Of a stretch of DNA of 43,873 nt, positions 336 to 36,832 are shown in pieces. The first letter of the stretch is position 1. Every line of letters begins with the position of its first letter. A program made the position numbers and the translations under genes. The stretch covers positions 1-43,873 of the forward strand of contig JAFGLY010000035.1 of assembly GCA_016927815.1 (NCBI GenBank). The letters are read 5' to 3'. The stretch is from Deltaproteobacteria bacterium. GTDB taxonomy: Bacteria; Myxococcota_A; UBA796; JAFGLY01. The notes under the pieces are model-generated. The model saw only the letters and a program-made list of their open reading frames with translations. It was not told the DNA's origin and made no database searches.

Positions 336-2515
336 TAGCCGTCGTCCGCGAGGCCGTCGCAGTCGTCGTCCACACCGTCGCACGCCTCGGTGGCGGTCGG
401 GTTGATGTCCTCGTCCGAGTCGTCGCAGTCCACCCCTCCCCAGGCCGAGCCGACGAAGCCGTCGTCGTCCGCGTCGGGGTAGCCCGGTCGGCCCAGGACC
501 ACGTACACCTCGCCCGAGGCGGACGCGCCTCCCGTGGCCCCGTACGCGCTGGTGGCGAGATCCTGCCAGCCATCGCCGTCGAAGTCGTCGGCGGCCACCG
601 AGAACCCGAGGTACTCCGAGGCGGTGTCGCCCACGAGTTGGCCCCATGCGTCGGCGGTGGTGTAGGAGCCGTCTGTGGAGAGCAGATCCGGGTGGAAGAG
701 GAACACGGCTCCCGCGGAGCTTCCAGACTCGTTGTTGCCGTACGCGCCCGCGACCAGGGCGTGGAGGGTATCGTCGGACAGCTCGATGCCGGCGACGGCG
801 TAGCCGAGGCGATCGGAGGGACTGCCGGTGACGATGGCGTCCGCACTGCCCAGGTCCGAGGGGAACGAGGAGGCGCTGCCGCGCACGAAGTACACGGCCC
901 CGTTCTGAGTGCTGCCGGCGGTGTAGGCGCCGATGAAGAGGTCATCGAGGCCGCCCGCGGAGTTGACGTCCCCGGGAGCGGCCACCGCGCACCCCGCGGC
1001 GTCCGAGGCCGAGTCGCCCAGCATGTCGTCGAAGTCGTCGAGATCCCCGTCCTCCAGTTCGTCCCCGAAGATCACGTAGGCCGCGCCGGCCCCGGATCCG
1101 CCGGAGTCGTTGCCCGGCGCACCCACGACGAGGTCCGCCTGGCCGTCGTTGTCCACGTCGCCACCGCCCGCCACCTGCCAGCCGGCCGAGTCGCCTGCGG
1201 AGACGCCCTCGAGGATGGCGTCCGCGCTGGAGAGGTCCAGGTCGCTCCACGAGGCGGCCCCGAGGACCACGTAGGCCGCGCCGGCGTCCGTGCCGTTGCG
1301 ATCGTTGGAGGGGGCGCCGACGAGGAGGTCGTCGTAGCCGTCGCCGTCCACGTCGCCCACCACGGCCACGGCCGAGCCCGCGGCGTCGCCGGCACTCTCG
1401 CCGATGAGGAGAGCATCGGCCGAGTCGTAGGACAGGCTCCCGGACGCCCCGCCCAGGAACACCGCGACCGACCCGGCGTCGCGGCCACCGCCGTCGTCGT
1501 ACGGGGCACCCACGAGGAAGTCGTCGAGGGCATCGCCGTCCAGGTCTCCGCCGCCGCCCACCGCGTACCCGGCCTGGTCCGCGGCGGTGGAGCCGACGAT
1601 GGTGGCGTAGGCGTCGCTGTCGGCGAGGGTTCCCGTGAGGGTGGACCCTCCCAGGTACAGGTAGGCGGCGCCCGCGTTGGTCCCACCGTCGTCGGCGTAG
1701 GGTGCGCCCACGAGGAGGTCGGCCACGCCGTCGCCGCTGTTGTCGCCCGCAGAGGCCACGGCCCAGCCGAACCGGTCGGACGCGCCGCCGCCCTGGAGCG
1801 TGGCATCCACCCAGTCGTCGGGGCTCATCACACCAGCCAGGTGCCGCTCGCCCCAGGGGGTGAAGACGATGGCGTCGGCCGAGAGCGCGACGGCGATCTC
1901 CTCGCAGCCGATCGTGAGGCCGGTGGATCCGTCTTGGATGCCGATGCTGCCGCATCGTCCATAGGACGTGTCGTTGTTGCCGGACCAGGTCCGGTAGTAC
2001 TCCATCTGGATCTCGCCCGTGTCGAGGAGCCAGACGCCGAAGTACTGTCCCGTCGGGTCCGTGCTGTTCATGACGACGTCGGCCCACTCCACGTAGATCG
2101 CGTTGGGCCAGACGTCGTAGTACACGCTTCCGGAATCGGAGTAGTCCCAGGACGACCACAACGGCGCGATGAACGTCCCGGACGAGGTGCCGTCGCCCAC
2201 GCAGGCGCCCGAGCTGAAGGCGCCCGGCGCGTCCGTTCCATCGCCCATCGAGACCACGCCGTAGGCATGGATCGTGACCTGGGAGTACTCGGTCCCGTAG
2301 AAGGGGAACGTGAACGGCAGGGTGATGGTCGTGTCCTCGTCGGTGGACAGGCCTAGATCCGTCCCGTCGAGGCCGACGATGTTCACCCAGGCGTATGGGG
2401 GTCCGTCCGACTCGGACACGCTCCGGTAGACGTACGTGTCGTCCGAGCCGGACAGGCCCAGCGCGGTCGAGGGGACGAGGGCGAGGAGGAGGATCGCTGC
2501 GGGAGCTGGGCGCAT
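1..2515 (-). CDS. Secreted FG-GAP (integrin-alpha-like) repeat protein with Asp-rich repeats, C-terminus off the window
   Basis: The reading frame starts at the ATG at 2515 on the minus strand and is open for 838 codons to the window edge, so the C-terminus is missing. Residues 1-19 form a signal peptide (MRPAPAAILLLALVPSTALG). Residues about 20-230 are a beta-rich domain with a 'TLPFTFPFYG' segment common in secreted myxobacterial proteins. About residues 235-680 hold some seven FG-GAP repeats, recognised by 'GDVDGDGYDDLLVGAP' and variants, which fold as beta-propeller blades with Ca2+-binding Asp loops. From about 690 there is a MopE-like Cys/Asp unit (CDGVDDDCDGLADDG), then 32-residue units built on 'DVEECDGLDNDGDGDVDEG'. 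It is probably exported to the surface or medium; its ligand is unknown. An AGGAGA ribosome binding site precedes the start. The frame was read directly; other long ORFs here are shadows. Confidence 0.88.
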   Translation of the reverse strand, partial: MRPAPAAILLLALVPSTALGLSGSDDTYVYRSVSESDGPPYAWVNIVGLDGTDLGLSTDEDTTITLPFTFPFYGTEYSQVTIHAYGVVSMGDGTDAPGAFSSGACVGDGTSSGTFIAPLWSSWDYSDSGSVYYDVWPNAIYVEWADVVMNSTDPTGQYFGVWLLDTGEIQMEYYRTWSGNNDTSYGRCGSIGIQDGSTGLTIGCEEIAVALSADAIVFTPWGERHLAGVMSPDDWVDATLQGGGASDRFGWAVASAGDNSGDGVADLLVGAPYADDGGTNAGAAYLYLGGSTLTGTLADSDAYATIVGSTAADQAGYAVGGGGDLDGDALDDFLVGAPYDDGGGRDAGSVAVFLGGASGSLSYDSADALLIGESAGDAAGSAVAVVGDVDGDGYDDLLVGAPSNDRNGTDAGAAYVVLGAASWSDLDLSSADAILEGVSAGDSAGWQVAGGGDVDNDGQADLVVGAPGNDSGGSGAGAAYVIFGDELEDGDLDDFDDMLGDSASDAAGCAVAAPGDVNSAGGLDDLFIGAYTAGSTQNGAVYFVRGSASSFPSDLGSADAIVTGSPSDRLGYAVAGIELSDDTLHALVAGAYGNNESGSSAGAVFLFHPDLLSTDGSYTTADAWGQLVGDTASEYLGFSVAADDFDGDGWQDLATSAYGATGGASASGEVYVVLGRPGYPDADDDGFVGSAWGGVDCDDSDEDINPTATEACDGVDDDCDGLADDGYSDTDDDGVADCVDVEECDGLDNDGDGDVDEDMPDTDKDGVCDDIDVEECDGLDNDGDGEVDEGFPDTDGDGTADCIDVEECDGLDNDGDGDVDEGYPDTDRDGIADCVDRE

Positions 2516-2664
2516 GGGGATCTCCTGGGGCGGGGAGAGAATCGGACCCCGAGCCGTGCAAGGGCCATCTTAGCACCCATGCGCAGGCAAGGGAAACGCG
2601 ATCTGAGCGCGAGGTGCTGCCCCCGGGGTACCGCAATAGGATTCCGAACCTCCGGAGACCCTCC
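2516..2664. promoter_or_regulatory. Divergent intergenic region between the FG-GAP gene and deoC
   Basis: This 149-bp gap separates two divergently read genes, so it should hold a promoter for each. On the minus strand TAAGAT (plus positions 2567-2572) resembles a -10 box, with only a weak -35. On the plus strand TAGGAT (2637-2642) could be a -10 for deoC, again without a convincing -35. No strong dyad or DeoR/CytR-type operator was seen. Confidence 0.3.
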
Positions 2665-3519
2665 ATGACCGGCGAACTGGACGCTCTGGTCGAGCGTATC
2701 GTGGCCCAGGTGCGTGCTCGCGTCGAGGCGGCAGGGGGGACGCCGTTGCCGGCCGTGACCGGCACATGGCAGGACGAGTCGGCCTTGAGGCTCGGGGTCG
2801 CGTACGGAGCCGACCGGCTCGGCACGGCGGCCCACGAGCCGACGGGCCCGCTCGCGGCGGACCTGGCGGGGTTGATCGACCACACCCTGCTCAAGCCCAC
2901 CGCAACCCGTCGGGACATCGAGGGCGTGTGCGCCGAGGCCCGACGCCACCGTTTCTACTCGGTGTGCCTGAACAGCACCTGGATCCCGCTCGCGGTCCGC
3001 CTGCTGGAGGGCTCGGGCGTACGGACTGTCTGCGTGGTGGGCTTCCCGCTCGGTGCCGCGAGCACGGAGGCCAAGGCCTCCGAGACGTCGAGCGCCGTCG
3101 ATGCGGGGGCCGCCGAGATCGACATGGTCGTCAACATCGGAAAGCTCAAGGGAGGCGAGTACGACGCTGTCCTGGAGGACATCCGATCGGTGGTGAGGGC
3201 GGCGAGGAGCCGGCCCGTGAAGGTCATCCTGGAGACGTCCCTGCTCACGCGCGAGGAGAAGATCGCGGGCAGCGCCCTGGCCAAGGCGGCGGGTGCCGCG
3301 TTCGTGAAGACCTCCACCGGGTTCGCCGGCGGAGGCGCCACGGTCGAGGACGTGGGCCTCATCCGCGAGGTCGTGGGCCCCGAGATGGGCATCAAGGCCT
3401 CGGGCGGGGTGCGGACCGCTCGGGACGCCGCCCGGATGGTGGCGGCCGGGGCCGACCGCATCGGTGCCTCCGCCAGCGTGGCCATCGTGACGGGCGGAGA
3501 GCCGAAGGACCCCACCTGA
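2665..3519 (+). CDS. deoC: Deoxyribose-phosphate aldolase
   Basis: Class I aldolase that splits 2-deoxyribose 5-phosphate into glyceraldehyde 3-phosphate and acetaldehyde, the last step of deoxynucleoside catabolism in the cytoplasm. The protein is 284 aa. The Schiff-base lysine is K215 in 'AAFVKTSTGF'; the other active-site residues are D153 in 'EIDMVVNIG' and K244 in 'MGIKASGGVR'. Residues 1-65 precede the usual family start ('DLAGLIDHTLLKP') and form an alpha-helical N-terminal extension of unknown role. The ATG at 2665 was chosen because the longer frame upstream would run into the divergent FG-GAP gene. The stop overlaps the deoB start (TGATG), so deoC, deoB and deoA form one operon. Confidence 0.96.
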   Translation: MTGELDALVERIVAQVRARVEAAGGTPLPAVTGTWQDESALRLGVAYGADRLGTAAHEPTGPLAADLAGLIDHTLLKPTATRRDIEGVCAEARRHRFYSVCLNSTWIPLAVRLLEGSGVRTVCVVGFPLGAASTEAKASETSSAVDAGAAEIDMVVNIGKLKGGEYDAVLEDIRSVVRAARSRPVKVILETSLLTREEKIAGSALAKAAGAAFVKTSTGFAGGGATVEDVGLIREVVGPEMGIKASGGVRTARDAARMVAAGADRIGASASVAIVTGGEPKDPT

Positions 3520-4688
3520 TGCGAGCGGTCGTGGTCGTACTGGACTCGCTCGGGGTCGGTGCCCTGCCCGATGCCGCCGCCTGGGGGGATGCCGGCAGCG
3601 ACACGCTCGGCCACCTGGCCGCGGCAGCCGGGCCGCTCGACCTGCCGCACCTTGCCTCCCTGGGGCTCGGCAACGTCCATCCCGTGCCCGGCGTGGCGCC
3701 GGCGGAGCGCCCCGAGGCCTCGTGGGGCCTCGCCGCCCTGGCCTCGGCGGGCAAGGACTCGGTCACCGGCCACTGGGAGATGATGGGGCACGTGGTGACG
3801 AAGCCCTTCGGGCGGTTTCCCGAGGGGTTTCCGCGCGCTATCCTCGATCCCTTCGAGGCGATCGTCGGCCTGCCCGTGCTGGGCAACCGGGCCGCCTCGG
3901 GAACGGAGATCATCGTGGAGTTGGGGGAGGCGCACCTGGGCACCGGCCGCCCGATCGTGTACACGTCCGCGGACTCCGTCTTCCAGGTCGCGGCGCACGA
4001 GCGGGTGATTCCGCTCGAGCGCCTGTACGCCCTGTGCGAAGCCGCGTTCCGGATCTGCACGCCCTTCCGGGTGGCCCGGGTGATCGCCCGGCCCTTCGAC
4101 GGGCCGCCCGGTGCGTTCGCCCGCACCGGAAACCGGAGGGACTTCGCCCTCCAGCCGGACGGAGAGACGGTCCTGGACCGGATCCTCGCCGCGGGGCTCG
4201 AGGTCGTCGGTGTGGGCAAGGTCCCCAGCCTGTTCGGAGGACGCGGCTTTTCGAGATCGCACAAGGCCGATGGCAACGAGGCCGTCGTGGAACGACTCCT
4301 CGACGTGCTGGCCGATCCGACGGACGGGCTCGTGTTCGCCAACCTGGTGGACTTCGACACGAAGTACGGCCACCGGCGCGATCCCGAGGGGTACGCCCGG
4401 GCCCTGGAGGCCTTCGACCGAAGCCTCCCCGCCCTGTTCGCCCGCCTCCACCCGGAGGACCTGCTCGTGATCACCGCCGATCACGGCAACGATCCGACGC
4501 ACCCGGGGTCCGACCACACGCGGGAATACGTCCCGTTCCTGGCCTGGCGGTCCGACCGACCGGCCCGTCCCCTGGGGCGGCGCGGCACGCTGGCCGACGT
4601 GGGCGCCACGGTGGCCGCGTACCTCGGCGTCCCCTGGCATGGGCCCGGCCGGGACGCCTTCGCGGGCGCGGGAGGCCGCGCCGCATGA
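3519..4688 (+). CDS. deoB: Phosphopentomutase
   Basis: Interconverts (deoxy)ribose 1-phosphate and 5-phosphate, linking the phosphorylase DeoA to the aldolase DeoC. The 389-aa length fits the family. It has the alkaline-phosphatase-type metal sites: D9 in 'VVLDSLGVGALPDA', 'VDFDTKYGHRR' (278-288) and 'TADHGNDPTHPGSDHTREY' (319-337). The motif around the phosphorylated residue reads 'GKDSVTGHWEMMG' (79-91); family members normally have Thr where this has Ser81. The start overlaps the deoC stop and the end overlaps the deoA start (ATGA at 4685-4688), showing translational coupling. Confidence 0.96.
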   Translation: MRAVVVVLDSLGVGALPDAAAWGDAGSDTLGHLAAAAGPLDLPHLASLGLGNVHPVPGVAPAERPEASWGLAALASAGKDSVTGHWEMMGHVVTKPFGRFPEGFPRAILDPFEAIVGLPVLGNRAASGTEIIVELGEAHLGTGRPIVYTSADSVFQVAAHERVIPLERLYALCEAAFRICTPFRVARVIARPFDGPPGAFARTGNRRDFALQPDGETVLDRILAAGLEVVGVGKVPSLFGGRGFSRSHKADGNEAVVERLLDVLADPTDGLVFANLVDFDTKYGHRRDPEGYARALEAFDRSLPALFARLHPEDLLVITADHGNDPTHPGSDHTREYVPFLAWRSDRPARPLGRRGTLADVGATVAAYLGVPWHGPGRDAFAGAGGRAA

Positions 4689-5956
4689 CGACGTCGCTTC
4701 CCGTCCTGCTCGAGCACAAGCGCGACGGAGGGCGCTACGCTGCCGAGGAGATCGAGGCATTCGTCCGAGCCGTGGTGGACGGCCGGGCCAGCCGTGCGCA
4801 GGCGGCTGCCTGGCTGGCCTTCGCCTACGTCCGGGGCCTCGACGACGGCGAGACGGCTGCGCTCACGCGGGCCATGGCCACGAGCGGCCGCATGCTGTCC
4901 TGGGAGGGGCTGGACGGTCCCTTCGTAGACAAGCACTCCACCGGGGGCGTGGGCGACAAGGTCTCGCTCGTTCTGGCGCCCCTGTGGGCGGAGCTGGGGC
5001 GCCGCGTGCCCATGGTGAGCGGGCGGGGCCTCGGCCACACCGGGGGCACGCTCGACAAGCTCGAGGCCATCCCCGGGTATCGCTGCGACCTCGAACCCGG
5101 TCGGCTCAGGCGGATCCTCGAGGACGTGGGCTGCTTCGTCAACGGGCAGACCGACGCGGTGGCTCCGGCGGACCGCATCCTGTACGCCCTGCGCAACGAG
5201 ACCGGAACGGTTCCGTCCATCCCGCTCATCACCGCCTCCATCCTCTCCAAGAAGCTGGCCGAGGGCATCTCCGATCTCGTGCTCGACGTGAAGGTGGGAA
5301 GCGGGGCCTTCATGCCCGACCTCGACGCCGCCCGCGCGCTCGCTCGGAGCATCGTGCGGGTGGGCCGCGATGCCAAGCTGAGGGTCCGTGCCCTGATCAC
5401 GGACATGGACCAGCCGCTGGGGCAGGCCGTGGGCAACGCCCTGGAGGTCCGGGAGGCCGTGGACGCGCTGAAGGGGGAGGGGCCCGACGACCTCGTGGCC
5501 TGCACGCTCGCGCTGGCCGGGGACGATCGCGCGGGAGCCCTGCTCGCCTCCGGAGCGGCCTTCGAGCGGTTTCGCCGCATGGTGGCCGCTCACGGGGGCG
5601 ATCCGGAGTCTCTCGACCGGCTGGGCCGCACGACGGACGGCATCGCGGTGGTCGAGGTGCGGGCCGATCGGAGCGGGTTTCTCCAGCGGTGCGACGCGCT
5701 CGGTGTGGGTCGTGCGGCGTTCGCGCTCGGAGCCGGCCGCTCGCGGGCCTCGGACGCCGTCCACCCGGACGTGGGCGTGGTGCTCGAGCGCAAGCGGGGC
5801 GACCCCGTGGCCGCGGGGGAGGTCCTGGCTCGGGTCCACCACGCGGGCCGGGAGCTGGACACGGCGCTCGCCTGTGTGCGGGCTGCATGCGTCGTCGGAG
5901 ACGCGCCTCCCGGGCCCGTCCCCCTGGTGCGGGACGTGGTGGACCTCGCGATCTGA
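4685..5956 (+). CDS. deoA: Thymidine (pyrimidine-nucleoside) phosphorylase
   Basis: Phosphorolyses thymidine, deoxyuridine or uridine to the free base and (deoxy)ribose 1-phosphate, feeding DeoB. The 423-aa protein shows the family's phosphate-binding 'KHSTGGVGDKVSL' (83-95) and signature 'SGRGLGHTGGTLDKLE' (112-127), plus 'ITASILSKKLAEG', which contributes to base recognition. The C-terminal domain ends in 'LERKRGDPVAAGEVLARVH', typical of the PYNP domain. It is the last gene of the deo operon; its ATG overlaps the deoB stop by 4 bp. From sequence alone, strict thymidine phosphorylase and the broader pyrimidine-nucleoside type (Pdp) cannot be separated. Confidence 0.93.
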   Translation: MTTSLPVLLEHKRDGGRYAAEEIEAFVRAVVDGRASRAQAAAWLAFAYVRGLDDGETAALTRAMATSGRMLSWEGLDGPFVDKHSTGGVGDKVSLVLAPLWAELGRRVPMVSGRGLGHTGGTLDKLEAIPGYRCDLEPGRLRRILEDVGCFVNGQTDAVAPADRILYALRNETGTVPSIPLITASILSKKLAEGISDLVLDVKVGSGAFMPDLDAARALARSIVRVGRDAKLRVRALITDMDQPLGQAVGNALEVREAVDALKGEGPDDLVACTLALAGDDRAGALLASGAAFERFRRMVAAHGGDPESLDRLGRTTDGIAVVEVRADRSGFLQRCDALGVGRAAFALGAGRSRASDAVHPDVGVVLERKRGDPVAAGEVLARVHHAGRELDTALACVRAACVVGDAPPGPVPLVRDVVDLAI

Positions 5957-6008
5957 CCGGAAGACAGGCGTTCTCCGACAGGTCGGCGGACACCGCGTCC
6001 CATCAAAC

Positions 6009-6026
6009 CGACCGACCGGTCAGTCG
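6009..6026. promoter_or_regulatory. 18-bp palindromic operator candidate (TetR/FadR-like)
   Basis: The sequence cgaccgaccggtcagtcg is a dyad in which 8 of 9 base pairs match across the centre (half sites cgaccgacc and, inverted, cgactgacc). The ACCGACCGGT core resembles operators of TetR-family regulators of lipid and fatty acid genes. It lies 96 bp upstream of the alpha-oxoamine synthase start. The regulator is not in this window. Confidence 0.5.
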
Positions 6027-6067
6027 AAAGAACAAGAGACAGGCGGCTTTTCCCGTTCTTCGTCCGC

Positions 6068-6097
6068 TTGACCCGAAGGGGGGTCCAGGTGTAGACC
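6068..6097 (+). promoter_or_regulatory. Possible sigma-70-type promoter of the alpha-oxoamine synthase gene
   Basis: TTGACC (6068-6073) and TAGACC (6092-6097) are 18 bp apart, upstream of a good ribosome binding site (GGAGGA) and the ATG at 6122. The -10 is a weak match. The palindrome at 6009-6026 lies upstream of it. Confidence 0.35.
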
Positions 6098-6121
6098 AGA
6101 AGGCGTACGGAGGAATCGGAC

Positions 6122-7402
6122 ATGAGCACCTCCTGTGATCCTGCCGTGCCGGCGACCGTCTCCGACATGGCAGCGGCCATGAACGCCCGCCACGAGGTCC
6201 AGCGCCGAGCCGCCCTGGACGTCTTCGAGCGGGCCATCGGCTTCGACCTGCCGGACCAGGTTCGATCGGTCGGCATGATGCCCTACTACCGAGAACTCAC
6301 CCGGAACGAGGGGCCGGTGTGCCTCATCGACGGCCGGCAGGCCATCATGCTGGGGTCCAACAACTACCTCGGTCTCACGACCCATCCTGCGGTCCGCGAG
6401 GCGGCCGCCCGAGCGGTCCTGGAGGATGGGCCGAGCCTCACGGGCTCCCGGCTGCTGAACGGCACGACCACTGCCCACACCGCGCTGGAGCGAAAGGTCG
6501 CGGAGTTCTTCGGGCGGGAGGACGCCCTGGTGTTCACCACCGGGTACCAGGCCAACATCGGCGTGATGACGGCGTTCGCCTCCCCGGAGACGACCGTGGT
6601 GCTGGACCGCCACTGCCACGCCTCCATCCTGGACGGCGTCCGCGCGGCCCGCGCACAGGTGGAGTGCTTCCCCCACAACGACGTGGCTGCGCTCGACCAG
6701 CTGCTCGACCGGCTCGTGGAGCAGGGCCCGTGCATGGTCATGGTGGACGGCCTCTACTCCATGGAAGGGGACATCGCGCCCCTCCCCGGAATCGCCGAGA
6801 CGTGCCGTCGCCACGGCGTCCGGCTCGTCGTGGACGAAGCCCATGCGCTCGGGGTGCTCGGCGCGACCGGACACGGCACCGAGGAGCACTTCGGCTGCCC
6901 GGGCCTCGCGGATCTCCTGACGGGGACCTTCTCCAAGTCGCTCGCGTCCATCGGAGGCTGGGTGGCCGGCAGCGCTCGGGTCATCGACTGGATGCGCTTC
7001 TTCGGACGATCCATGGTCTTCTCGGCCTCCATGCCCCCGGCCCAGATTGCCGCGGCGAGCACGGCGCTCGACCTCCTTCGAGCCGAGCCCTGGCGGGTGA
7101 CCCGGGTCAACGAGAACGGCCAGACCTGGCGAGAGGGACTCGTGCGGGCCGGGTTCGTCGTCGGCAACTCGGTCTCGCCCATCGTGCCCGTCACGGTGGG
7201 CGACGACTTCACCTGCCTCATCGTGGGCAAGGCCCTCCTCGACGCCGGTGTCTACGTGAATCCCGTGGTCTACCCGGCGGTGCCCCGGGACAAGGCCATG
7301 CTCCGGACCAGCGTCATGGCCACGCACGAGCCCCACCACCTGGCGACCGCGCTGGAGATCCTGGAGACGGTGGGCCGCAAGGTGGGCCTGCTCAAGGGGT
7401 AG
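6122..7402 (+). CDS. PLP-dependent alpha-oxoamine synthase, probably serine palmitoyltransferase
   Basis: Fold-type I PLP enzyme that condenses an amino acid with an acyl-CoA (or acyl-ACP) with loss of CO2. The 426-aa protein shows 'GSNNYLGLTTHPAVREAA' (78-95), the cofactor-stacking His166 in 'RHCHASI', 'VVDEAHALG' (D238, H241), and the Schiff-base K272 in 'TGTFSKSLAS'. The N-terminal 'MMPYYREL' region and 'GTFSKSLASIGGW' are closer to serine palmitoyltransferases than to KBL or BioF, and sphingolipids are known in myxobacteria, so SPT is the best guess. Other family members (e.g. 3-ketoacid or autoinducer synthases) remain possible. It is a single gene with a strong ribosome binding site (cggagga) and its own promoter region holding an operator-like palindrome. 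Confidence 0.8.
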   Translation: MSTSCDPAVPATVSDMAAAMNARHEVQRRAALDVFERAIGFDLPDQVRSVGMMPYYRELTRNEGPVCLIDGRQAIMLGSNNYLGLTTHPAVREAAARAVLEDGPSLTGSRLLNGTTTAHTALERKVAEFFGREDALVFTTGYQANIGVMTAFASPETTVVLDRHCHASILDGVRAARAQVECFPHNDVAALDQLLDRLVEQGPCMVMVDGLYSMEGDIAPLPGIAETCRRHGVRLVVDEAHALGVLGATGHGTEEHFGCPGLADLLTGTFSKSLASIGGWVAGSARVIDWMRFFGRSMVFSASMPPAQIAAASTALDLLRAEPWRVTRVNENGQTWREGLVRAGFVVGNSVSPIVPVTVGDDFTCLIVGKALLDAGVYVNPVVYPAVPRDKAMLRTSVMATHEPHHLATALEILETVGRKVGLLKG

Positions 7403-7452
7403 CGGCACGCGGGAGGGTTAGGTCCCTCCACCCCGACGGCCGCCGCGCACCC

Positions 7453-10400
7453 ATGCACATCCGGAAGCTGGAAATCCACGGCTTCAAGTCGTTCCCGGAT
7501 CGGACGACGCTTCACTTCGGCCCGGGCATCTCGGGCGTGGTGGGCCCCAACGGATGCGGCAAGTCGAACGTCCTGGATGCGGTGAAGTGGTGTATCGGCG
7601 AGCAGTCGCCCCGCGCGCTCCGGGGCCAGGTCATGGAGGACGTGGTCTTCAACGGAGCCGAGGGTCGCCCCCCCATGTCCCTGGCCGAGGTCAGCCTCAC
7701 GCTCCTTGCCGGAGCCCAACCCTTTCCCGGAGACTGGGCCCGGTTCGAGGAGGTGCGGATCACGCGTCGGATGACGCGGGGGGGTCCGTCCGAGTACCTC
7801 CTCAACCAGGAACGGGTCCGTCTGCGCGACGTCCACGACCTCCTCCTCGACACCGGCGCCGGGGCCAGGTTCTACGCGTTCATCGAGCAGGGACGGATCG
7901 GCGGCATCGTGGAGTCCACCCCGGAGCAGCGACGGGCGCTCCTCGAGGAGGCGGCCGGCATCTCTCGGTTCAAGGCCCGCCGCGCCGAGACCCTGACCCG
8001 CCTGGAGGCGACGCTGGACAACCTCCAGCGCTCGAGCCACGTGCTCCAGGATTTCGAGGTTCGCCTGGAGCGCCTCGGCCGGCAGGTGGAGCAGGCGGCG
8101 CGGTACCGGCGCTACCGGGCCATCGCCCGTCAGGGCGCGCTCGTGATCGCACTCGTCCGTGCGGGCGGACTCATCGCGGACCGCCGTGTCCTGGCCCGGG
8201 ACCAGCAGGAGGGTGCGCGTGCGCTGGAAACCGCGGGTCGCGACCTGAACCGACGGGAGGGCGACCTGGTGCGGGACCGGGAGGCCGTCGAACTCCAGGA
8301 ACGCCGGGTGGGGGGGATCCGCGATCGGCTCGCGTCGCTGGAGGCCTCCCGGCGCGAGCACGAGTCCGCTCGCCTGTACCAGGACCGGGAGGCCGCCGAC
8401 CTCGAGGATCGGGCGGAGCGGCTCGCCGGGGAGGTCCGGGTGGGCCTGGAGCGCAACGAACGGGCGGTGATGGAGCGCGACGCCGCCTCGGCGCGGGCCA
8501 CGGCGTCGGCCGAGCAACTGTCCCGCAGAGAGGCTGATCTTGCGGTTCTGGAGGAAAAGGATCGGGTTGCCCGGGCACGCGTCGAGGAGGCCGGACAGGA
8601 GGTGGCCCGGGCACGACGGAGGGTGGCGGACACCCACACGGACGCCGAGCGTGCACGGGCGCGCCGCGAGGGGCTGGAGCTCCAGGTGCAGGAAGCGACC
8701 GAGGCTTTGGATCGCCTCCTTCGCGAGCAGGCGTCCGCGTGCGAGGAGGCCGAGCGACTGGCCCACGATCGAATCGGAACCGAGGCCGAGCACGTGGCAG
8801 CGACCGCACGACTCGGGGCCTCGGCCGCTGCGCTCGCCGAGGCGCGCCTGGCCCTGGAAGCGGCCTCGGCAGGGGCGCGTGCGTCGGTCGAGGCCCGGCG
8901 GGCTGCGGAGCAGGCGTCCGCTGCGGCGGACCGCGACCAGGCCGCTGCCGAGGGCCTCAGGACCTCCCTGGAGGCGCTCGAGGCCCGCCACGAGGGCGTG
9001 TCCGACGCGCCTAGAGCCATCCTCGAACGGGTGGAGGGTGCCTGGCTCGTGGCCGAGGAGGTGGAGGTACCCGGCGACATCGTGGCGGGCCTCTCAGCCG
9101 TCCTGGGAGACCGCGTGGACGCCGTGGCGCTCGCACGCCGGGAGGATCTCGGACCCGCGATCGAGGCCGCACGTGGCGGGACCGCCTGGGTGGTGCTGCC
9201 CGGCGGCTCGTCCCCCTCTCCTGCGGGTCTGGCCGGGCGTGTGGCCGGGACCGAGCGCGCCCGTGCCGCCCTGGCCCGTCTCCTCGGACCGGTCGAAGTG
9301 GCGGACGACCTCGAGGCTGCGCTCGTCCACCAGGCCTCCAACAGCACCGTGGTCACAGGCGCCGGCGACCTCGTGCTGCCGGGGGGCGTGCTTCGGCTCG
9401 GAGGGCCGGGCACGGGTGCAGGCAGCGCCGTCCTGGGGCGTCGCCAGGCGCTCAGGGAGGCCGAAGAAGCGTGCGCCCGGGCCGGGGATCGGGCCGAGGC
9501 AGTCCGTGCCGCCGCCCTCGGGGCCGCCCAAGAGGCGCAGGGGGCCCTGGAGACCGAAGACGCGGCGCGGACGGCGCTCACCGCGGCCCAGGAGGCCCAC
9601 CGCCTCGAGGAGTTGGAGGCCTCGGGTCTGGGTCACCGGGTGCGGGCGTGCACGGAGGCCGAGGAGCGACACCAGCGGCGCCTCCAGGACCTCGCGGCGC
9701 GGATCGAGGGGGGAACCGCCCGGCGGGCCGAGTTGGAGACGGCGCTCGACGAGGCGGGCTCGGATCGGGAGGCCTCGACGGCTCGAGACCGCGATGCACA
9801 GGCGGCCCTGGAGGCCGCCGAAGCCGTCCTGGACGCCCTCGGGGCGGCTCGGTCGGCCGCGCTCCAGCAGGTGCAGGCCCTGCGCGAGGAGGTGGCCGCG
9901 CTCCGAGAACGCGTCCGAGCCGAGGAGCAGGCCCGGACTGCCGCCGAGCAAGCGGTGGCGACCTTCACCGAGGCGGTGGAACGGGCGCGGGCCGAGTCCG
10001 TCCGGGTGGCCTCACGGCAACGGGATCTCGCCGACCAGGTCGCGGCCACCGAGGCCGCCATCGTCCAGGTGGCCGAGGCCCAGGCGCAGGCCTCGGCCGA
10101 GGTCGAGGAGGAGCGCCGGCGCCTCCAGGCTCTGCGGGAGGCCGCGGCGCGAACCGAGGAAGCGGTGGCTCGCGCCCGCGACGTGCGCGAGCGGGCCGAG
10201 CGGGTGCTGGGCGATCTGGAGGCCCGGCTTCGGGAGACCCGCGCCCTGCTCGAGGCGCTCAAGCGGAGCATGGAAGAGGACCAGGGCGTCTCGCTCGCCG
10301 GTCTCCTCGACCGGCTCGACAAGAACGGGCAGTTGGTGATCCCGCACGGCCTTTCGGACGACGCGCGCCTGCCCCTGGATGTCCGGCGCCTGCCGCCCGT

Positions 10401-11091
10401 GGAGGATCTGGTGATCACGCCCGGGGACCTCGCCGCTCCCGATCTGGCCCGGACCTGGACCGAGGCCACCGAGCGGGCCAGGCGGCGCCTGGAGGCGCTC
10501 GAGGACGTCAACCTCACAGCGGTGGAGGAGTACCTGGAGGTGCTCCACCGCACGGAGGAGATCCGGTGCCAACGCGCGGACCTCGAGGCCACGGTGGCCG
10601 AGATCCGAGACGCCCTGGCCCGCGTGAACCGCACCTGCCGGGAGCGGTTCCGGGAGACCTACCAGGCCGTGGACGCGCACTTCCGCGATCTGTACGCCCG
10701 TCTTGCGGGGGGAGGGGAGGCCCGCCTGGTCCTCACCGACGAGGAGGACCTGCTCGAGACGGGGGTCGAGATCGTGGCCTCCCCGCCGGGCAAGCGGCTC
10801 AAGACGCTGGGGCTCCTGTCCGGGGGGGAGAACGCGGTGGTGGCCATCGCGCTGCTCTTTGCCCTGTTCCGGGTCCGCCCCTCTCCGTTCTGCCTGCTGG
10901 ACGAGGTGGACGCACCTCTGGACGAAGCCAACGGAGCCCGGTTCAACGCCCTCTTGAGGGAGATGTCCCGGACCTCCCAGTTCGTGGTCATCACGCACAA
11001 CCGCAAGACCATGGAGGCCGCGGACATCCTGTACGGCGTCACCATGCCGGACCCGGGGGTCTCCCGGCTCGTCACGGTCGAGGTGCGCTGA
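7453..11091 (+). CDS. smc: Chromosome segregation protein SMC
   Basis: ATPase of the bacterial condensin that loops and compacts DNA around newly replicated origins, usually with ScpA and ScpB. The 1212-aa protein has the Walker A 'GPNGCGKS' (31-38), 'GFKSF' near the N-terminus, a long Arg/Glu/Ala-rich coiled coil, a hinge near residues 535-660 ('GDIVAGLSAVLGDRVDAVAL'), a second coiled coil, and the C-terminal signature 'LSGGE' (1122-1126) with Walker B 'FCLLDEVDAPLDEAN' and 'THNRKTME'. The ATG at 7453 gives the canonical 'MHIRKLEIHGFKSF' start. It sits 50 bp after the alpha-oxoamine synthase gene and just ahead of ftsY, a common bacterial pairing. No scpAB lies in this window. Confidence 0.97.
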   Translation: MHIRKLEIHGFKSFPDRTTLHFGPGISGVVGPNGCGKSNVLDAVKWCIGEQSPRALRGQVMEDVVFNGAEGRPPMSLAEVSLTLLAGAQPFPGDWARFEEVRITRRMTRGGPSEYLLNQERVRLRDVHDLLLDTGAGARFYAFIEQGRIGGIVESTPEQRRALLEEAAGISRFKARRAETLTRLEATLDNLQRSSHVLQDFEVRLERLGRQVEQAARYRRYRAIARQGALVIALVRAGGLIADRRVLARDQQEGARALETAGRDLNRREGDLVRDREAVELQERRVGGIRDRLASLEASRREHESARLYQDREAADLEDRAERLAGEVRVGLERNERAVMERDAASARATASAEQLSRREADLAVLEEKDRVARARVEEAGQEVARARRRVADTHTDAERARARREGLELQVQEATEALDRLLREQASACEEAERLAHDRIGTEAEHVAATARLGASAAALAEARLALEAASAGARASVEARRAAEQASAAADRDQAAAEGLRTSLEALEARHEGVSDAPRAILERVEGAWLVAEEVEVPGDIVAGLSAVLGDRVDAVALARREDLGPAIEAARGGTAWVVLPGGSSPSPAGLAGRVAGTERARAALARLLGPVEVADDLEAALVHQASNSTVVTGAGDLVLPGGVLRLGGPGTGAGSAVLGRRQALREAEEACARAGDRAEAVRAAALGAAQEAQGALETEDAARTALTAAQEAHRLEELEASGLGHRVRACTEAEERHQRRLQDLAARIEGGTARRAELETALDEAGSDREASTARDRDAQAALEAAEAVLDALGAARSAALQQVQALREEVAALRERVRAEEQARTAAEQAVATFTEAVERARAESVRVASRQRDLADQVAATEAAIVQVAEAQAQASAEVEEERRRLQALREAAARTEEAVARARDVRERAERVLGDLEARLRETRALLEALKRSMEEDQGVSLAGLLDRLDKNGQLVIPHGLSDDARLPLDVRRLPPVEDLVITPGDLAAPDLARTWTEATERARRRLEALEDVNLTAVEEYLEVLHRTEEIRCQRADLEATVAEIRDALARVNRTCRERFRETYQAVDAHFRDLYARLAGGGEARLVLTDEEDLLETGVEIVASPPGKRLKTLGLLSGGENAVVAIALLFALFRVRPSPFCLLDEVDAPLDEANGARFNALLREMSRTSQFVVITHNRKTMEAADILYGVTMPDPGVSRLVTVEVR

Positions 11092-21287: not shown

Positions 21288-21585
21288 CGAACCTCCCTGG
21301 CAGGGCCTGGAGCGCCCCGGCGCCGGCTCCGTGCGCGCCACGCGCCACAGGCCACCGACGACGGATCGATCCGAGCAGGCCCGAAACCGATCTCGTGGCG
21401 CCGGGGTGCGGACCGTCCGGATCGCCCGGTGCAACGACGCTGCGACCGGGGTCGGATCGCCGCGCTGACGTGTGCGTGGTGACTTCGCAGAACGTTGACA
21501 CTTCACCTCCCGCACAGGTATAACTCGTCTGACCTTCCCCCCGTGTTCCAGGGAGGTGGGTCCGCCCGTTCCCCGGAGAAGCTCG
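21288..21585. promoter_or_regulatory. Divergent promoter region between yqeY and the MopE-like lipoprotein gene
   Basis: This 298-bp gap separates two divergent transcription units. The plus-strand promoter at 21495-21524 is clear. No equally convincing promoter for the minus-strand operon was found, and no strong dyad or terminator was seen. Confidence 0.5.
21495..21524 (+). promoter_or_regulatory. Consensus sigma-70 promoter of the MopE-like lipoprotein gene
   Basis: TTGACA (21495-21500) and TATAAC (21519-21524) are separated by 18 bp, standing out sharply in DNA of this GC content. Transcription would start near 21531, leaving an untranslated leader of about 55 bases before the ATG at 21586. 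Confidence 0.75.
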
Positions 21586-23745
21586 ATGGCACCCCGCCCC
21601 TTCCCCATCTTCCTGATCGCTGCAACCGTCGCCTTCTCCGCCTGCGGCGACGGCGAGGAGAAGCCCGTCTACTACGACTATCCGAAGGGCGTCTTCTCCA
21701 CGCAGACCGTGGACTTCGGCAGCACGGACCAGGGCACGTCCGTCGTCCGGCAGATCACGCTCACCAACCAGGGCGACCTGTCGATGGGCATCGCGTCCAT
21801 CGAGACCGGCGTCCGCGACCGCTCCTCGGAGTTCACCGTCTCGTGGACCCGCCTGGAGATCACCTGCCCGGACGGCGGGGAACAGGCCGAAGCGGCCGAG
21901 GCCCGACGCTACGTCCTCGACAGCGGCGCGGGCGAGACCGGAGAGGAGGACACCGGGGAGGACGAGACGGGCCCCATCGCCCTGGTGCTCGATCCCGGGT
22001 GCACGATCCCGATCCACCTGTCCTACACGGCGAACCAGCTCGGCGAGGTGTGGGGATCCCTCATCGTGGAGACCGTGGAGGAGACCCAGCCCGACACAGC
22101 GCCCGCCAGCTGGACCCCGGCCTACTACGCCGACCCCACCAACCAGCGCCGGGTCGTCTACCTGAAGGGCGAGGCCGAGCGGGGCATCCCCAACATCGTG
22201 GTGTCGCCGCGACGGTACGACTTCGGCAACGTCTGGAGCGGCCGGGAGGAGAAGGCGTTCTTCTCCGTCCGGAACCTCGGGGACGGCACGCTCACCATCC
22301 GCAACGTGTACCTCTCCCCCACGAGCTGTGACGAGGCCTACAGCATCACCAACGCGGAGGACGGCCTCACGACCACGCTCGAGCCCGACGAGTCCACCTT
22401 CGTCGAGGTGACCTTCGCCCCGACCGACCTCGACGAGGCCACCTGCCGCCTGTACGTCGAGTCCGACGACGAGGACTCCCCGTCCATCAGCGTGCCGCTC
22501 CAGGGCAACATCGGCCTCGATCCGAGCAACCGCCCGCCCACGGTACGCATCCGCGACCCCATCGTGGGTTACCAGCACGCCGGGCACCAGCCGTTCCAGA
22601 TCGAGCTGAACGTCTACGACGTGAACCAGCCCGCGACGTCCCTGACCTGCCGGTTGAAGTCCATGGTGCTCCGCAAGACGGAGACCATCGCGGACTGCAC
22701 GCCGCCCGACGATTCCGGGCACGTCTACGTGTCCATCGACCCCGACGACATCGGGGTGGGCAACGACACCTTCCGCGTCCAGGTCACGGATGGCAACGAG
22801 GAGGTGGCCTACGCCTCCATCGCCGTCCTCCTCAACGCCTCCTTCCCGGAGAGCGACGACGACGGCGACGGCTGGGGTGACGAGTGGGACGCCGACACGT
22901 TCGGCAACTTCGACTGCGACGACCACGAGATCAACGTCTACCCCTTCGCCGCAGAGCTCGCCGACCACATGGACAACGACTGCGACGGCGTCGTGGACGA
23001 GGGCACCGTCCTCTCCGACGACGACGGCGACGGCTTCTCCGAGAACGACGGGGACTGCAACGACCTCGACGTCGCCATCTACCCGGGTGCGGTCGAGGTG
23101 ACCGACGACAAGGACAACAACTGCGACGGGAACATCGACGAGGGTACCTCGGTCTACGACGACGACGGCGACGGCTTCTCCGAGCTGGATGGCGACTGCG
23201 ACGACGAGAACCCGGAGATCAACCCGGGTGCCACCGAGTACTGCGACGGCGTCGACAACAACTGCAACGGGTTGCTCGACTACGCGGACGGCTGCATCGA
23301 CCTCAACTCGTTGCCGTACATCGTCGGCGGCATCCGCATGGAGCAGACCGCGTGCGAATCGGGCGATCGCATCGGCCTCTCGGTGTTCGTCTTCGACGCC
23401 GACGGACAGGCGATCGACTATGCCTGGAGCGGGGACCAGGGCGTGGGCATCGAGCCGACCACCGGCTCTCCCCAGGTGACCGTGACCTGCCCGACGGTCG
23501 CGGACAACATCGGCAGCGCGGTGAAGAGCCTCTACGTCGTGGCCACCGACGAGGACGCCAACAGCGTGTGGGACTTCGCCGAACTCACCGTGTACCCCGA
23601 GGGGGACCTGTACCGGCCGCTCACGAGGACCGTGACCACCGACGAGGGGTGCTCGACCTCCGGAGGGTCCGGCGCGGGCCGCGGCTTCTCCATCGCCGCC
23701 TTGGCCCTCCTCGCGGCCGTCCTGAGGCGCCGCCGGAGCCGGTAG
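21586..23745 (+). CDS. MopE-like lipoprotein with HYDIN-type domains and MYXO-CTERM-like tail
   Basis: A 719-aa secreted protein. It opens with a lipoprotein signal peptide and lipobox (AFSAC, Cys20). Residues about 35-110 and 205-300 look like choice-of-anchor D / HYDIN-type beta domains ('VDFGSTDQGTSVVRQITLTN', 'YDFGNVWSG'). About 440-580 holds three Cys/Asp-rich MopE-type metal-binding units such as 'DNDCDGVVDEGT', 'DNNCDGNIDEGT' and 'DNNCNGLLDYADGC'. The C-terminus 'GCSTSGGSGAG' followed by a hydrophobic helix and 'RRRRSR' matches the MYXO-CTERM sorting pattern. ATG 21586 was preferred to GTG 21556 because it starts the signal peptide. Likely located at the outer surface; partner unknown. 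Confidence 0.85.
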   Translation: MAPRPFPIFLIAATVAFSACGDGEEKPVYYDYPKGVFSTQTVDFGSTDQGTSVVRQITLTNQGDLSMGIASIETGVRDRSSEFTVSWTRLEITCPDGGEQAEAAEARRYVLDSGAGETGEEDTGEDETGPIALVLDPGCTIPIHLSYTANQLGEVWGSLIVETVEETQPDTAPASWTPAYYADPTNQRRVVYLKGEAERGIPNIVVSPRRYDFGNVWSGREEKAFFSVRNLGDGTLTIRNVYLSPTSCDEAYSITNAEDGLTTTLEPDESTFVEVTFAPTDLDEATCRLYVESDDEDSPSISVPLQGNIGLDPSNRPPTVRIRDPIVGYQHAGHQPFQIELNVYDVNQPATSLTCRLKSMVLRKTETIADCTPPDDSGHVYVSIDPDDIGVGNDTFRVQVTDGNEEVAYASIAVLLNASFPESDDDGDGWGDEWDADTFGNFDCDDHEINVYPFAAELADHMDNDCDGVVDEGTVLSDDDGDGFSENDGDCNDLDVAIYPGAVEVTDDKDNNCDGNIDEGTSVYDDDGDGFSELDGDCDDENPEINPGATEYCDGVDNNCNGLLDYADGCIDLNSLPYIVGGIRMEQTACESGDRIGLSVFVFDADGQAIDYAWSGDQGVGIEPTTGSPQVTVTCPTVADNIGSAVKSLYVVATDEDANSVWDFAELTVYPEGDLYRPLTRTVTTDEGCSTSGGSGAGRGFSIAALALLAAVLRRRRSR

Positions 23746-31443: not shown

Positions 31444-33570
31444 ATGATGGCCCCCCAGGTTCGCGAGATCCTCGCCCGAGGCGCCCGGCGCCTGCGGATC
31501 CCGTGGCCGGGGGGGGGCGGTGGACGACGATCGGCGCGGCCCAGGCTGCTCGAGGTCCGAGCCCGGACCCGTGCGACGGCGGACCAGCGGGTGCGGGTCC
31601 TGGGGGGCCTCGTGCTGGCGGGATTCGCGTTCGTGGCGATCCGGAGCGGCATTCTCATGCTCGTTCCCAACGAGCGCCTGGAGGACAAAGCCACGGGGCA
31701 GTTCCTCGTGGTGGACACCCTCGAGGCCAGCCGTGGGGACTTGAGGGATCGCGATGGCGGCCTCCTGGCCACCACGGTCGAGATGCCCTCCTTGAGGGCC
31801 GACCCCCAGAGGATCCCGGCGGATCGGGCGCCAGAGATCGCCGCCCGTCTCTCCGAGATCCTCGGAATCGAGCCTGCGACGGTGAAGGCCGCCCTCACGC
31901 GGACCGTGGGAGGCAAGCCTGCGCGCGACGTGCTCATCGCCCGCAATCTCGATCCGGGACTCGCGGAGCGGGCCCGGCAGGTGCACACGGACGGGCTGTT
32001 CGTCCGCAACGAGGGTCGGCGCTACTACCCGGGCGGATCCATGGCCGCCGGCCTCCTGGGCATCGCGGGCCGCTCGGGCGCAGGGCTCGACGGCCTGGAA
32101 GGCGCCCCGGACCTGGACACCTGGCTGCGCGGGGACACGTTCCACTACCTCCAGCTGCGCGATGCTCAGGGGCACGGGCTCACCACCCGCTCGGCGGCGC
32201 TGGCGGACGCACGGCGCGGCAACGACGTCTACCTGACCATCGATCGGGCCATCCAGCTGGCTTCGGAGCAGGCCATCGATCGGATCCAGGTCGATTCGGC
32301 TCCAGAAGCCGCCACGATCGTGGTCGTGGACGTGCACACCGGCGAGGTCCTGGCGGTCGCCAACCGACCCGACACCAATCCCAACGACCCCTCCACGCTC
32401 GACCTGGCAGGCCTGAGGAACCACGCGGTGGCCGACGCCTTCGAGCCGGGATCGGTCTTCAAGCCCTTCGTGATCGCTCTTGCCCTCGAGGACGGACTCG
32501 TGACCCCGGGCACGCAGGTGGACTGTGAGGGTGGACGCTGGAGCGTGGGCGCCTCCACCATCCGGGACGACCATCCCCACGGTGTCCTCACGGTGGACGA
32601 GGTCATCAAGTACTCGAGCAACATCGGCGCTGCGAAGATCACGCTCCGCCTCGGGGCCGAGAAGGCCGTGGCCGGATTGAAGGACTTCGGTTTCGGCCGG
32701 CCGCTCCGCCTCGGCCTGCCGAGCGAGGTATCCGGCTTCGTCCGGCGTCCGGACCGGATCCGCACGATCGAGTTGGCCACCACGGCCTTCGGCCAGGGGG
32801 TCACGGCCACCCCGCTTCACCTCGCGCTCGCGGTCGCCGCCCTGGCGAACGGCGGGGTCCGCATGCATCCGCTCCTGGTGAAGGAAGTGCGCAACCGCCA
32901 GGGCGAGGTCCTGTTCGCGAACGCGCCCCAAGAGGATCGCCGTGTCGTGGGGGAACGAGCGGCCCGTGAGACGCTCGAGGCCATGGTCCAGGTCACCGAG
33001 CCGGGGGGCACGGGAACCCGCGCTCGGGTCCCGGGCTACCGGGTCGCAGGCAAGACCGGGACCGCGCAGAAGGTCGTGGACGGGGTGTATTCGCCGACTG
33101 CCCGTGTCTCCTCCTTCATCGGGGCCGTTCCCGCGGACGATCCCCAGGTCGCCATCGCGGTGGTCGTGGACACGCCCACCCAGGGGAGCCGGTACGGCGG
33201 CATCGCAGCCGCGCCGGCCTTCGCTCACGTGGCTGCGGCCGCGCTCCGACGCCGGGGTGTGCCCGCGAACCCCGCGTACCCGGAGCCGCCCTGCGATCCC
33301 GCCCTGGCTTCGGCCCCGGAGCCACCGCCCCCTGTGCCGCTCCAGTGGCCCTGCACCCCCGACGAGCCCGTAGCCCTGCTCCAGTGGGCAGATCGCTCGG
33401 CCCTCCGCGTGCCCGACCTCGAGGGGCTCTCGAAGCGGGACGTGCTCGTCGTCTTCCAGGACTCGAGCCTGGAGGTCGCACTCTGGGGCCACGGGCTCGC
33501 CGTCTCCCAGCAACCCGCCGCCGGCTCCGTGGTGCCTCCCGGAGCGCGCGTGGAGGTCCGATTCCAGTGA
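31444..33570 (+). CDS. ftsI: Septal peptidoglycan transpeptidase FtsI (PBP3) with PASTA domain
   Basis: Class B penicillin-binding protein that cross-links septal peptidoglycan together with FtsW. The 708-aa protein has a basic, Gly-rich N-terminus, a membrane helix (about 53-73), a dimerisation/pedestal region starting 'SRGDLRDRDGGLLA' (96-109), and the transpeptidase domain with active-site S337 in 'PGSVFKPF' (SxxK), 'SSN' (391-393) and 'GKTGTAQK' (536-543). Residues about 650-708 form one PASTA domain ('VPDLEGLSKRDVLVVF'). It starts 3 bp after ftsL; a second ATG follows directly. The next gene, murE, lies 354 bp away, unlike the overlapping genes elsewhere in the cluster. Confidence 0.96.
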   Translation: MMAPQVREILARGARRLRIPWPGGGGGRRSARPRLLEVRARTRATADQRVRVLGGLVLAGFAFVAIRSGILMLVPNERLEDKATGQFLVVDTLEASRGDLRDRDGGLLATTVEMPSLRADPQRIPADRAPEIAARLSEILGIEPATVKAALTRTVGGKPARDVLIARNLDPGLAERARQVHTDGLFVRNEGRRYYPGGSMAAGLLGIAGRSGAGLDGLEGAPDLDTWLRGDTFHYLQLRDAQGHGLTTRSAALADARRGNDVYLTIDRAIQLASEQAIDRIQVDSAPEAATIVVVDVHTGEVLAVANRPDTNPNDPSTLDLAGLRNHAVADAFEPGSVFKPFVIALALEDGLVTPGTQVDCEGGRWSVGASTIRDDHPHGVLTVDEVIKYSSNIGAAKITLRLGAEKAVAGLKDFGFGRPLRLGLPSEVSGFVRRPDRIRTIELATTAFGQGVTATPLHLALAVAALANGGVRMHPLLVKEVRNRQGEVLFANAPQEDRRVVGERAARETLEAMVQVTEPGGTGTRARVPGYRVAGKTGTAQKVVDGVYSPTARVSSFIGAVPADDPQVAIAVVVDTPTQGSRYGGIAAAPAFAHVAAAALRRRGVPANPAYPEPPCDPALASAPEPPPPVPLQWPCTPDEPVALLQWADRSALRVPDLEGLSKRDVLVVFQDSSLEVALWGHGLAVSQQPAAGSVVPPGARVEVRFQ

Positions 33571-33924
33571 TCCGTTTCCACAGGAGGACCCTGACCCGAC
33601 CGATGATCCCCCCGAGGTGGGGGGGTGTGGCACACAGTGGGTCTCGGACCGGAGCGCCCCGGCTCCCGGTCCGGGTGACCAGGTGCGACGCCCTGCCCGG
33701 GCGTTCCTGCCGCCGGTTCCCCCCGGCCGGCCTCGCCCGCGTCGCGACACTGGCACCGGAGCCACGAACGCCGACTCGTTCTTCTCGCTGATGCTGCCAC
33801 GGCCGCATCCCCCCACCTCCGCCCCCCAGGCGCTGCTCCCCCGCCTTCTCGCCCCCCTGGAGGGAGACCGGTTCCCTCCCTCCTTTTCCCCCCCAGGCCG
33901 CCCGTCCCCGCCTCGCCGCCCACC
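33571..33924. other. 354-bp C-rich gap between ftsI and murE with hairpins
   Basis: The only long gap inside the dcw cluster. It holds an inverted repeat of six C and six G around GAGGT (33608-33624), a very C-rich, G-poor second half (from about 33800) that resembles a Rho-loading site, and a hairpin followed by TTTT (33859-33888). A 62-codon frame from ATG 33603 is Arg/Pro-rich with no properly spaced ribosome binding site and is not considered a gene. No Shine-Dalgarno sequence was seen before the murE GTG. Confidence 0.55.
33859..33888 (+). terminator. Hairpin with T run ahead of murE, possible attenuator
   Basis: GGAGGGA (33859-33865) and TCCCTCC (33873-33879) pair over 7 bp around a 7-nt loop, followed by CTCCTTTT. 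It could be an intrinsic terminator or attenuator controlling read-through from ftsI into murE. The T run is short and set a few bases away, so termination would be partial. Confidence 0.4.
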
Positions 33925-36824: not shown

Positions 36825-36832
36825 GGCACGCG

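Follow-up and report, generated by a model that had tools for sequence, protein, structure and literature searches.

The window (i.e., the whole stretch of 43,873 nucleotides analyzed here) is contig C170 of genome G000, an assembly of 3,989,788 bases in 216 contigs that is 97% complete. A gap of 165 nt between the stop codon of an upstream ORF (at 5956) and an ATG at 6122 contains an 18-bp dyad, CGACCGACCGGTCAGTCG, found on the plus strand at 6009-6026. The upstream ORF (3722-5956, plus strand) ends in thymidine phosphorylase; because this domain spans residues 329-740, the true start probably lies near 4706. This ORF belongs to a deo-type cluster and was excluded from the regulon. Downstream of the gap is a plus-strand gene (6122-7402) for a 426-aa serine palmitoyltransferase (SPT)-like alpha-oxoamine synthase (AOS), assigned from Aminotran_1_2, NCBIfam and PDB matches, and behind it a plus-strand gene for an SMC-like protein (7453-11091, start as in the ORF list), recognized by eye from its translation; Pfam SMC_N was found in the protein downstream of one relative of the SPT-like gene (L008). 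Elsewhere in the window, a PBP transpeptidase, Mur ligases and a Glycos_transf_4 (MraY-type) protein are encoded together at 31444-41893 as a division and cell-wall cluster, and 21556-23745 (plus strand) encodes a 729-aa protein that combines MopE metal-binding motifs with a HYDIN-like Ig domain.

The best NCBIfam model for the 6122-7402 product was serine palmitoyltransferase NF047600 (405.7 bits, below the cut-off of 640). The other SPT models gave 380.8 bits (NF047599, cut-off 500) and 291.6 (NF047603, cut-off 670), and the curated cut-off was reached for none of the three. The best 10 PDB sequences are all serine palmitoyltransferases (E 3.2e-89). Furthermore, the H-S-DG, D-AH and TFSKSLAS motifs, which we take to be the PLP lysine and histidine motifs of SPT, align with the sequences of the SPT structures. 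The product thus appears to be an SPT-like AOS, and a sphingolipid may be what it makes.

A palindromic element ahead of the SPT-like gene

The earlier note had described the dyad at 6009-6026 as paired at 8 of 9 positions, and its coordinates and pairing were confirmed; it is two mismatches away from its own reverse complement. As a bare palindrome, the dyad is no more than chance would provide: 18-bp dyads paired at 8/9 positions or better number 20 in the window, compared with 14-27 in ten mononucleotide shuffles. Because such dyads occur at chance number in the window, the dyad itself is no evidence, and we judged the site real because it is conserved (see below). The palindromic element withstood this analysis but its center at 6017.5 did not, since the register common to five promoters is GAC-N6-GTC, centered at 6015.5. 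In the alignment of these five promoters, GAC and GTCA are invariant and six bases separate GAC from GTC, which therefore sets the working register at 6008-6023. The operator in this conserved register, CCGACCGACCGGTCAG, has half-sites CGACC/GGTCA with a 4-bp spacer and pairs at 7/9 positions about 6015.5 (hand count), and the originally described dyad is a second register overlapping the same element. Positions 6008-6026 thus form a short inverted repeat in two overlapping registers, as looked for in a TetR operator. A possible weak second dyad, CCGACAGGTCGG (5975-5986), lies ~35-37 bp upstream and matches the motif at 11 of 14 positions; its conservation was not supported by the relatives.

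The element is conserved ahead of a subset of relatives

We gathered relatives of the SPT-like protein from the order and the class and searched 250-300 nt upstream of 13 of them, on both strands, with the 20-mer AAACCGACCGACCGGTCAGT (6005-6024, plus strand). Close matches (15-17/20) lie ahead of four of the 13 relatives, from two families. Those in genomes G006 and G016 match at 17/20 positions, which none of 1000 dinucleotide shuffles equalled in either case; those in G001 and G011 match at 15/20 (1/1000 shuffles each), and the G011 site is the weaker. G001 is the sole relative from the same family as the window. Two sites lie ahead of its gene, one of them a perfect 22-bp palindrome, and its best 20-mer match falls on the reverse strand at this palindrome. 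The other nine relatives lack an outstanding match (best match equalled by 137 to 1000 of 1000 shuffles). These site-less relatives include all seven of families f8 and f9, with 41-45% protein identity, while the carriers in f6 share only 38-39%. At the site-bearing loci the upstream gene varies, being deoA in the window, nupC in G001 and metG in G006, G016 and G011; the site therefore travels with the SPT-like gene. Conservation ahead of orthologues, whose absence the earlier note had named as part of a refutation, was seen in G001, G006 and G016, and in weaker form in G011.

The 16-mer at 6008-6023 also fits, at 16/16 positions, the consensus published for PfmR/TTHB023, a TetR-family protein of Thermus thermophilus with fatty-acid targets ((a/c)Y(g/t)A(A/C)YGryCR(g/t)T(c/a)R(g/t); PMC7022988); when the gap was mononucleotide-shuffled 20,000 times, 3 shuffles fitted as well. 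The best fit in the G006 gap was equalled by 4/20,000 shuffles; that in the G001 gap (15/16, equalled by 98/20,000) is weaker than in the window or G006. A resemblance to TetR-family operators of lipid genes had been claimed for the dyad, and this published consensus bears it out (PMC7022988).

Copies elsewhere in the genomes

A search of G000 with the 18-mer returned no other match within two mismatches except the 18-mer itself reversed; other matches differ by three letters. The 14-letter motif ACYGACYRGTCRGT, which was formulated after viewing these sites, has one exact site in G000 and two in G001, all ahead of the SPT-like gene only; with one mismatch allowed, its number in G001 is at or below control. 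The only other strict-core match in G000, on contig C20, lies within ORFs, as do the matches at G001:C327, C338 and C241, G000:C72 and G016:C310 (ORFs of at least 100 aa); that at G016:C392 lies outside such ORFs, near a contig end. Two other 16/16 consensus matches in G000 have a different, ATGAATG form, one within ORFs (C103) and one between two likely gene ends (C157). These ATGAATG-type matches may belong to a second TetR class, C143, described below. Genome-wide motif counts did not exceed read-backwards controls in most genomes. A genome scan for further copies marking lipid genes had been proposed as a check, and in G000 we found no second convincing copy. The earlier note had counted absence of other genome copies and of conservation upstream of orthologues against the element; roughly the former is what we see, but the latter does not hold.

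G001 carries core-type sites at other genes too: a full TGACCGATCGGTCA site lies ahead of an FtsX-like permease gene (L209, G001:C23:30000-39000, at 3066-3079), and CGACCGATCGGTCG lies ahead of a TetR gene (L210, G001:C302, at about 2155-2168).

PKS-AOS operons carry a site of the same type at their head

A strict-core scan covered 63 genomes of the order, with counts taken from the matches listed; among these, the strict core was in many genomes no more frequent than its read-backwards control. Three of the listed matches are followed, about 7-8 kb further on, by PKS-fused AOS genes. Twenty-eight of the 38 PKS-type AOS loci were retrieved and, with the truncated L238 left out, 27 were analyzed. 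In all 27, an AMP-ligase-like gene (about 580-750 aa) precedes the PKS, and its product is homologous to one Pfam-confirmed AMP-binding protein. It is followed by a fused protein with the order KS-AT-ACP-KR-DH-AOS (domains by Pfam at one locus).

Near the AMP-ligase start, 16/27 regions of 600 nt contain a site matching the PfmR consensus at 15/16 positions or better, compared with 1/480 control windows from the same loci, and 11/27 fall below 15/16; at a threshold of at least 14, the counts are 21/27 and 41/480. Without the three loci that prompted the test, the result is 13/24 vs 1/434 (Fisher 6e-18, a nominal value because the loci are related to one another). The read-backwards pattern also scores at least 15 in 6/27 test regions, so repeats of CCGA contribute to the scores. 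A fitted weight matrix placed a site above score 8 in 31/32 regions; because it was fitted to the sequences that it scores, we preferred the external consensus. By its sequence, the same type of predicted site thus heads PKS-AOS operons of related families in the order.

The site lies at a steady distance upstream of a putative promoter

The earlier note had placed a possible promoter downstream of the dyad, and TTGACC-N18-TAGACC is present there: a putative -35 box, TTGACC (6068-6073, plus strand), lies 52 bp downstream of the operator center and is separated by 18 bp from a putative -10 box, TAGACC (6092-6097, plus strand). Promoters of this form were also seen ahead of relatives. A strict consensus promoter scan reported neither this promoter nor any over the site. 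We scanned 32 regions for TTG(A/G)(C/A)-N-TA(G/C), requiring a core site 20-170 bp upstream. Sixteen gave both promoter and site, of which G022 (core 9/12) was set aside, leaving 15 that span families f1, f2 and f6; the other 16, including 12/13 f3 loci, gave no promoter by this pattern, and G016 (32.5 bp) could be fitted only by hand.

In 14 of the 15 regions, the distance from the site center down to the -35 box is 46-59 or 29-33 bp; the exception is G044 (63-67). This two-band spacing was matched by 0/20,000 random placements, for bands chosen after viewing the data and loci that are related. The bands are about 21 bp apart, i.e., two helical turns, and both are present at the G050 promoter. 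Overlap or abutment with the promoter, as for a repressor, was not found in the 15 regions, where the site is 29-67 bp upstream of the -35 box. Class I activators sit at such positions and roadblock repressors do not. This geometry suggests an activator rather than a roadblock, and speaks at least as much for activation as for repression.

By eye, the seven class-level relatives (L120-L126, families f8 and f9), which have no operator, carry a TTG(A/C)-N17/18-TA promoter ahead of the gene. From these loci, the promoter seems to predate the operator.

Candidate regulators

Seven TetR_N proteins were found in G000. Two TetR classes are common to G000, G001, G006 and G016: C168 (49-71% identity) and C143 (53-71%). 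The C143 class is represented in G006 by two contig-end pieces and in G001 by a relative (L062, G001:C400) with 71% identity to G000:C143. The leading candidate is the C168-class TetR at G000:C168:59829-60437, a class found in 52 of the 63 genomes of the order. The order-wide co-occurrence count covered this class alone among TetR classes. It was found in 42/43 genomes with a PKS-AOS or SPT-like gene vs 5/15 without (58 genomes, uncorrected for kinship), using a strict, hand-made AOS list of 38 genes classed as PKS-type from the length of the open frame or a contig end and 5 SPT-like genes; with a looser AOS list, the counts were 44/47 vs 3/11. This co-occurrence with lipid genes is no more than suggestive.

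No site with the 12/12 core was found ahead of the C168-class gene itself in any of the 29 loci scanned (of 30; L176, whose start was not found, was left out), the best being one with 11/12. In addition, a C168-class TetR was not found in G011, a 72% complete genome with the weak site. In structure-database searches, 3vuq (presumably SbtR) was the second-best PDB match of the C168 TetR among those listed, and 3vpr, which we take to be the Thermus TetR PfmR, ranked 21st among 60 listed in a one-way search (E 1.2e-9). HTH likeness does not single out C168, because the top HTH score against 3vuq belongs to C143 (130, compared with 118 for C168). We rank C168 first as candidate regulator, at modest odds.

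Several TetR loci bear features of their own. In G000, the C168 TetR gene adjoins genes for MurJ and a B12-binding radical-SAM protein (L115, G000:C168:55000-66000, at 4827-8702) and is unlinked to the lipid gene; in G001 the TetR gene likewise has relatives of both neighbors beside it, and in G006 a relative of the radical-SAM gene. The TetR gene of L062, with relatives in G000:C143, G016 and G006, has GTGAATGAGCCCTCATTCAC ahead of it, which to us resembles the FadR site of bacilli. At L119 (G000:C106:48000-59000), a perfect 23-bp palindrome, TACCGACCGACCGTCGGTCGGTA, starts 34 bp ahead of a TetR gene (5337-6026), and the genes behind it, which include those for an ABC transporter ATPase and a LolA-like protein, perhaps form an autoregulated export operon. 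L083 (G000:C114, at 539-3018) has AGACTAACCGGTTGGTCG ahead of its TetR gene and HlyD and ABC-transporter genes behind, and looks like an efflux operon.

Discussion

The earlier reading of a regulated TetR-type site is largely supported. We consider 6008-6026 to be, more likely than not, a functional TetR-type operator that controls the 6068-6097 promoter and the SPT-like gene with an upstream activator geometry, a prediction made from sequence. A TetR-family dimer, or two on overlapping registers, would bind GAC-N6-GTC upstream of the -35 box and act from there on RNA polymerase as an activator, and an acyl-CoA-like or long-chain ligand would set binding or release. The same site type would control the AMP-ligase and PKS-AOS operons, which would make up a regulon for long-chain amino-ketone (sphingoid-type) lipids, and the regulator would be the order-wide C168 TetR as leading candidate. 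Because this site type recurs at AMP-ligase and PKS-AOS operons of related families, it may serve as a marker of such a regulon. A fuller version is speculative and, taken as a whole, rather unlikely in our estimate: a C168-class TetR activator that senses an acyl or long-chain-base signal and turns on the synthesis of sphingoid-type lipids from operators lying upstream of the -35 box and about two helical turns apart, with control kept while the target changed from one kind to the other, i.e., between a stand-alone SPT-like enzyme and a fused PKS-AOS operon.

The strongest alternative is that the TetR-type operator serves ordinary repression, such that an unrecognized promoter over or upstream of the site is blocked until an acyl-CoA-like ligand releases the protein, as for PfmR. 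Most TetR proteins are repressors, which counts for this reading. PfmR and PaaR have sites of almost this sequence and act as repressors (PMC7022988, PMC2770484), and some Thermus targets have the site at -7 to -37 from the start codon (PMC7022988). The recurring promoter form, however, lies downstream of the site by 29-59 bp in 14/15 regions, and the promoter scan found none over the site. We prefer activation because the distance from the site down to the -35 box varies so little, and grant repression a lesser but appreciable chance. A separate question is whether the cognate regulator is another of the seven TetR proteins, which we regard as somewhat improbable. The C143 class has the top HTH score and relatives of 53-71% identity in G001, G016 and G006, but its G001 member has a different dyad ahead. 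The dyad of C106 has 12 contiguous bases in common with the window site and that of C114 agrees at 15/18 positions; against them, C106 has no match beyond the HTH in the other four genomes and an odd-spaced dyad, and C114 finds its sole counterpart among those four in G001 (45%) and has a half-site without the G of GACC.

A chance palindrome in a GC-rich gap would agree with the dyad count in the window and with the lack of a second genome copy. We rejected it as very improbable despite that count, given the 20-mer conservation ahead of relatives, the recurrence at PKS-AOS operons and the steady geometry. An RNA element, e.g., a terminator of the upstream deo genes, would suit a position some 50 nt past the stop codon of the upstream ORF, but the dyad has no loop and folds no better than shuffles (z -0.17). 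A terminator scan found none on the plus strand and one weak one on the minus strand at 6056-6039, outside the dyad, and G011 has a hairpin with a T-run that is distinct from the site and stands between it and metG. We therefore rejected this explanation also, with next to no probability left to it.

Our literature search found no paper that describes an operator controlling transcription of bacterial genes for sphingoid-type lipids. If the predicted TetR-type operator is correct, one short site would be a handle on when sphingoid-type lipids may be made across an order, here represented by fragmented assemblies. The site leaves a few TetR proteins as candidate regulators, could mark further pathway genes and predicts an activation geometry, which is uncommon among TetR proteins.

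Related sites are known from other bacteria; Thermus belongs to another phylum than the organism of the window. The TetR-type operator of PaaR in Burkholderia cenocepacia, ACCGACCGGTCGGT, differs by one base from window positions 6011-6024, and both are dual overlapping inverted repeats; PaaR differs in that its operator lies between the -35 and -10 boxes, where it represses phenylacetate genes (PMC2770484). The polyketide-synthase sphingolipid cluster PfSgaAB of Pseudomonas fluorescens MYb115 consists of two genes (PMC12134224), compared with the fused KS-AT-ACP-KR-DH-AOS protein after an AMP-ligase seen here, and the main text of that paper has no word beginning 'regulator'. The consensus of another Thermus TetR-family protein, SbtR/TTHA0167 (TGACYrnnyRGTCA, as cited in PMC7022988), is fitted fully by the G006 and G016 sites and to within one letter by the window. 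PfmR shares the GAC-N6-GTC core with the fully matching window site and targets acyl and fatty-acid genes (PMC7022988); the window differs in the placement of its site upstream of a -35 box at a steady distance, and in having an alpha-oxoamine synthase as the target.
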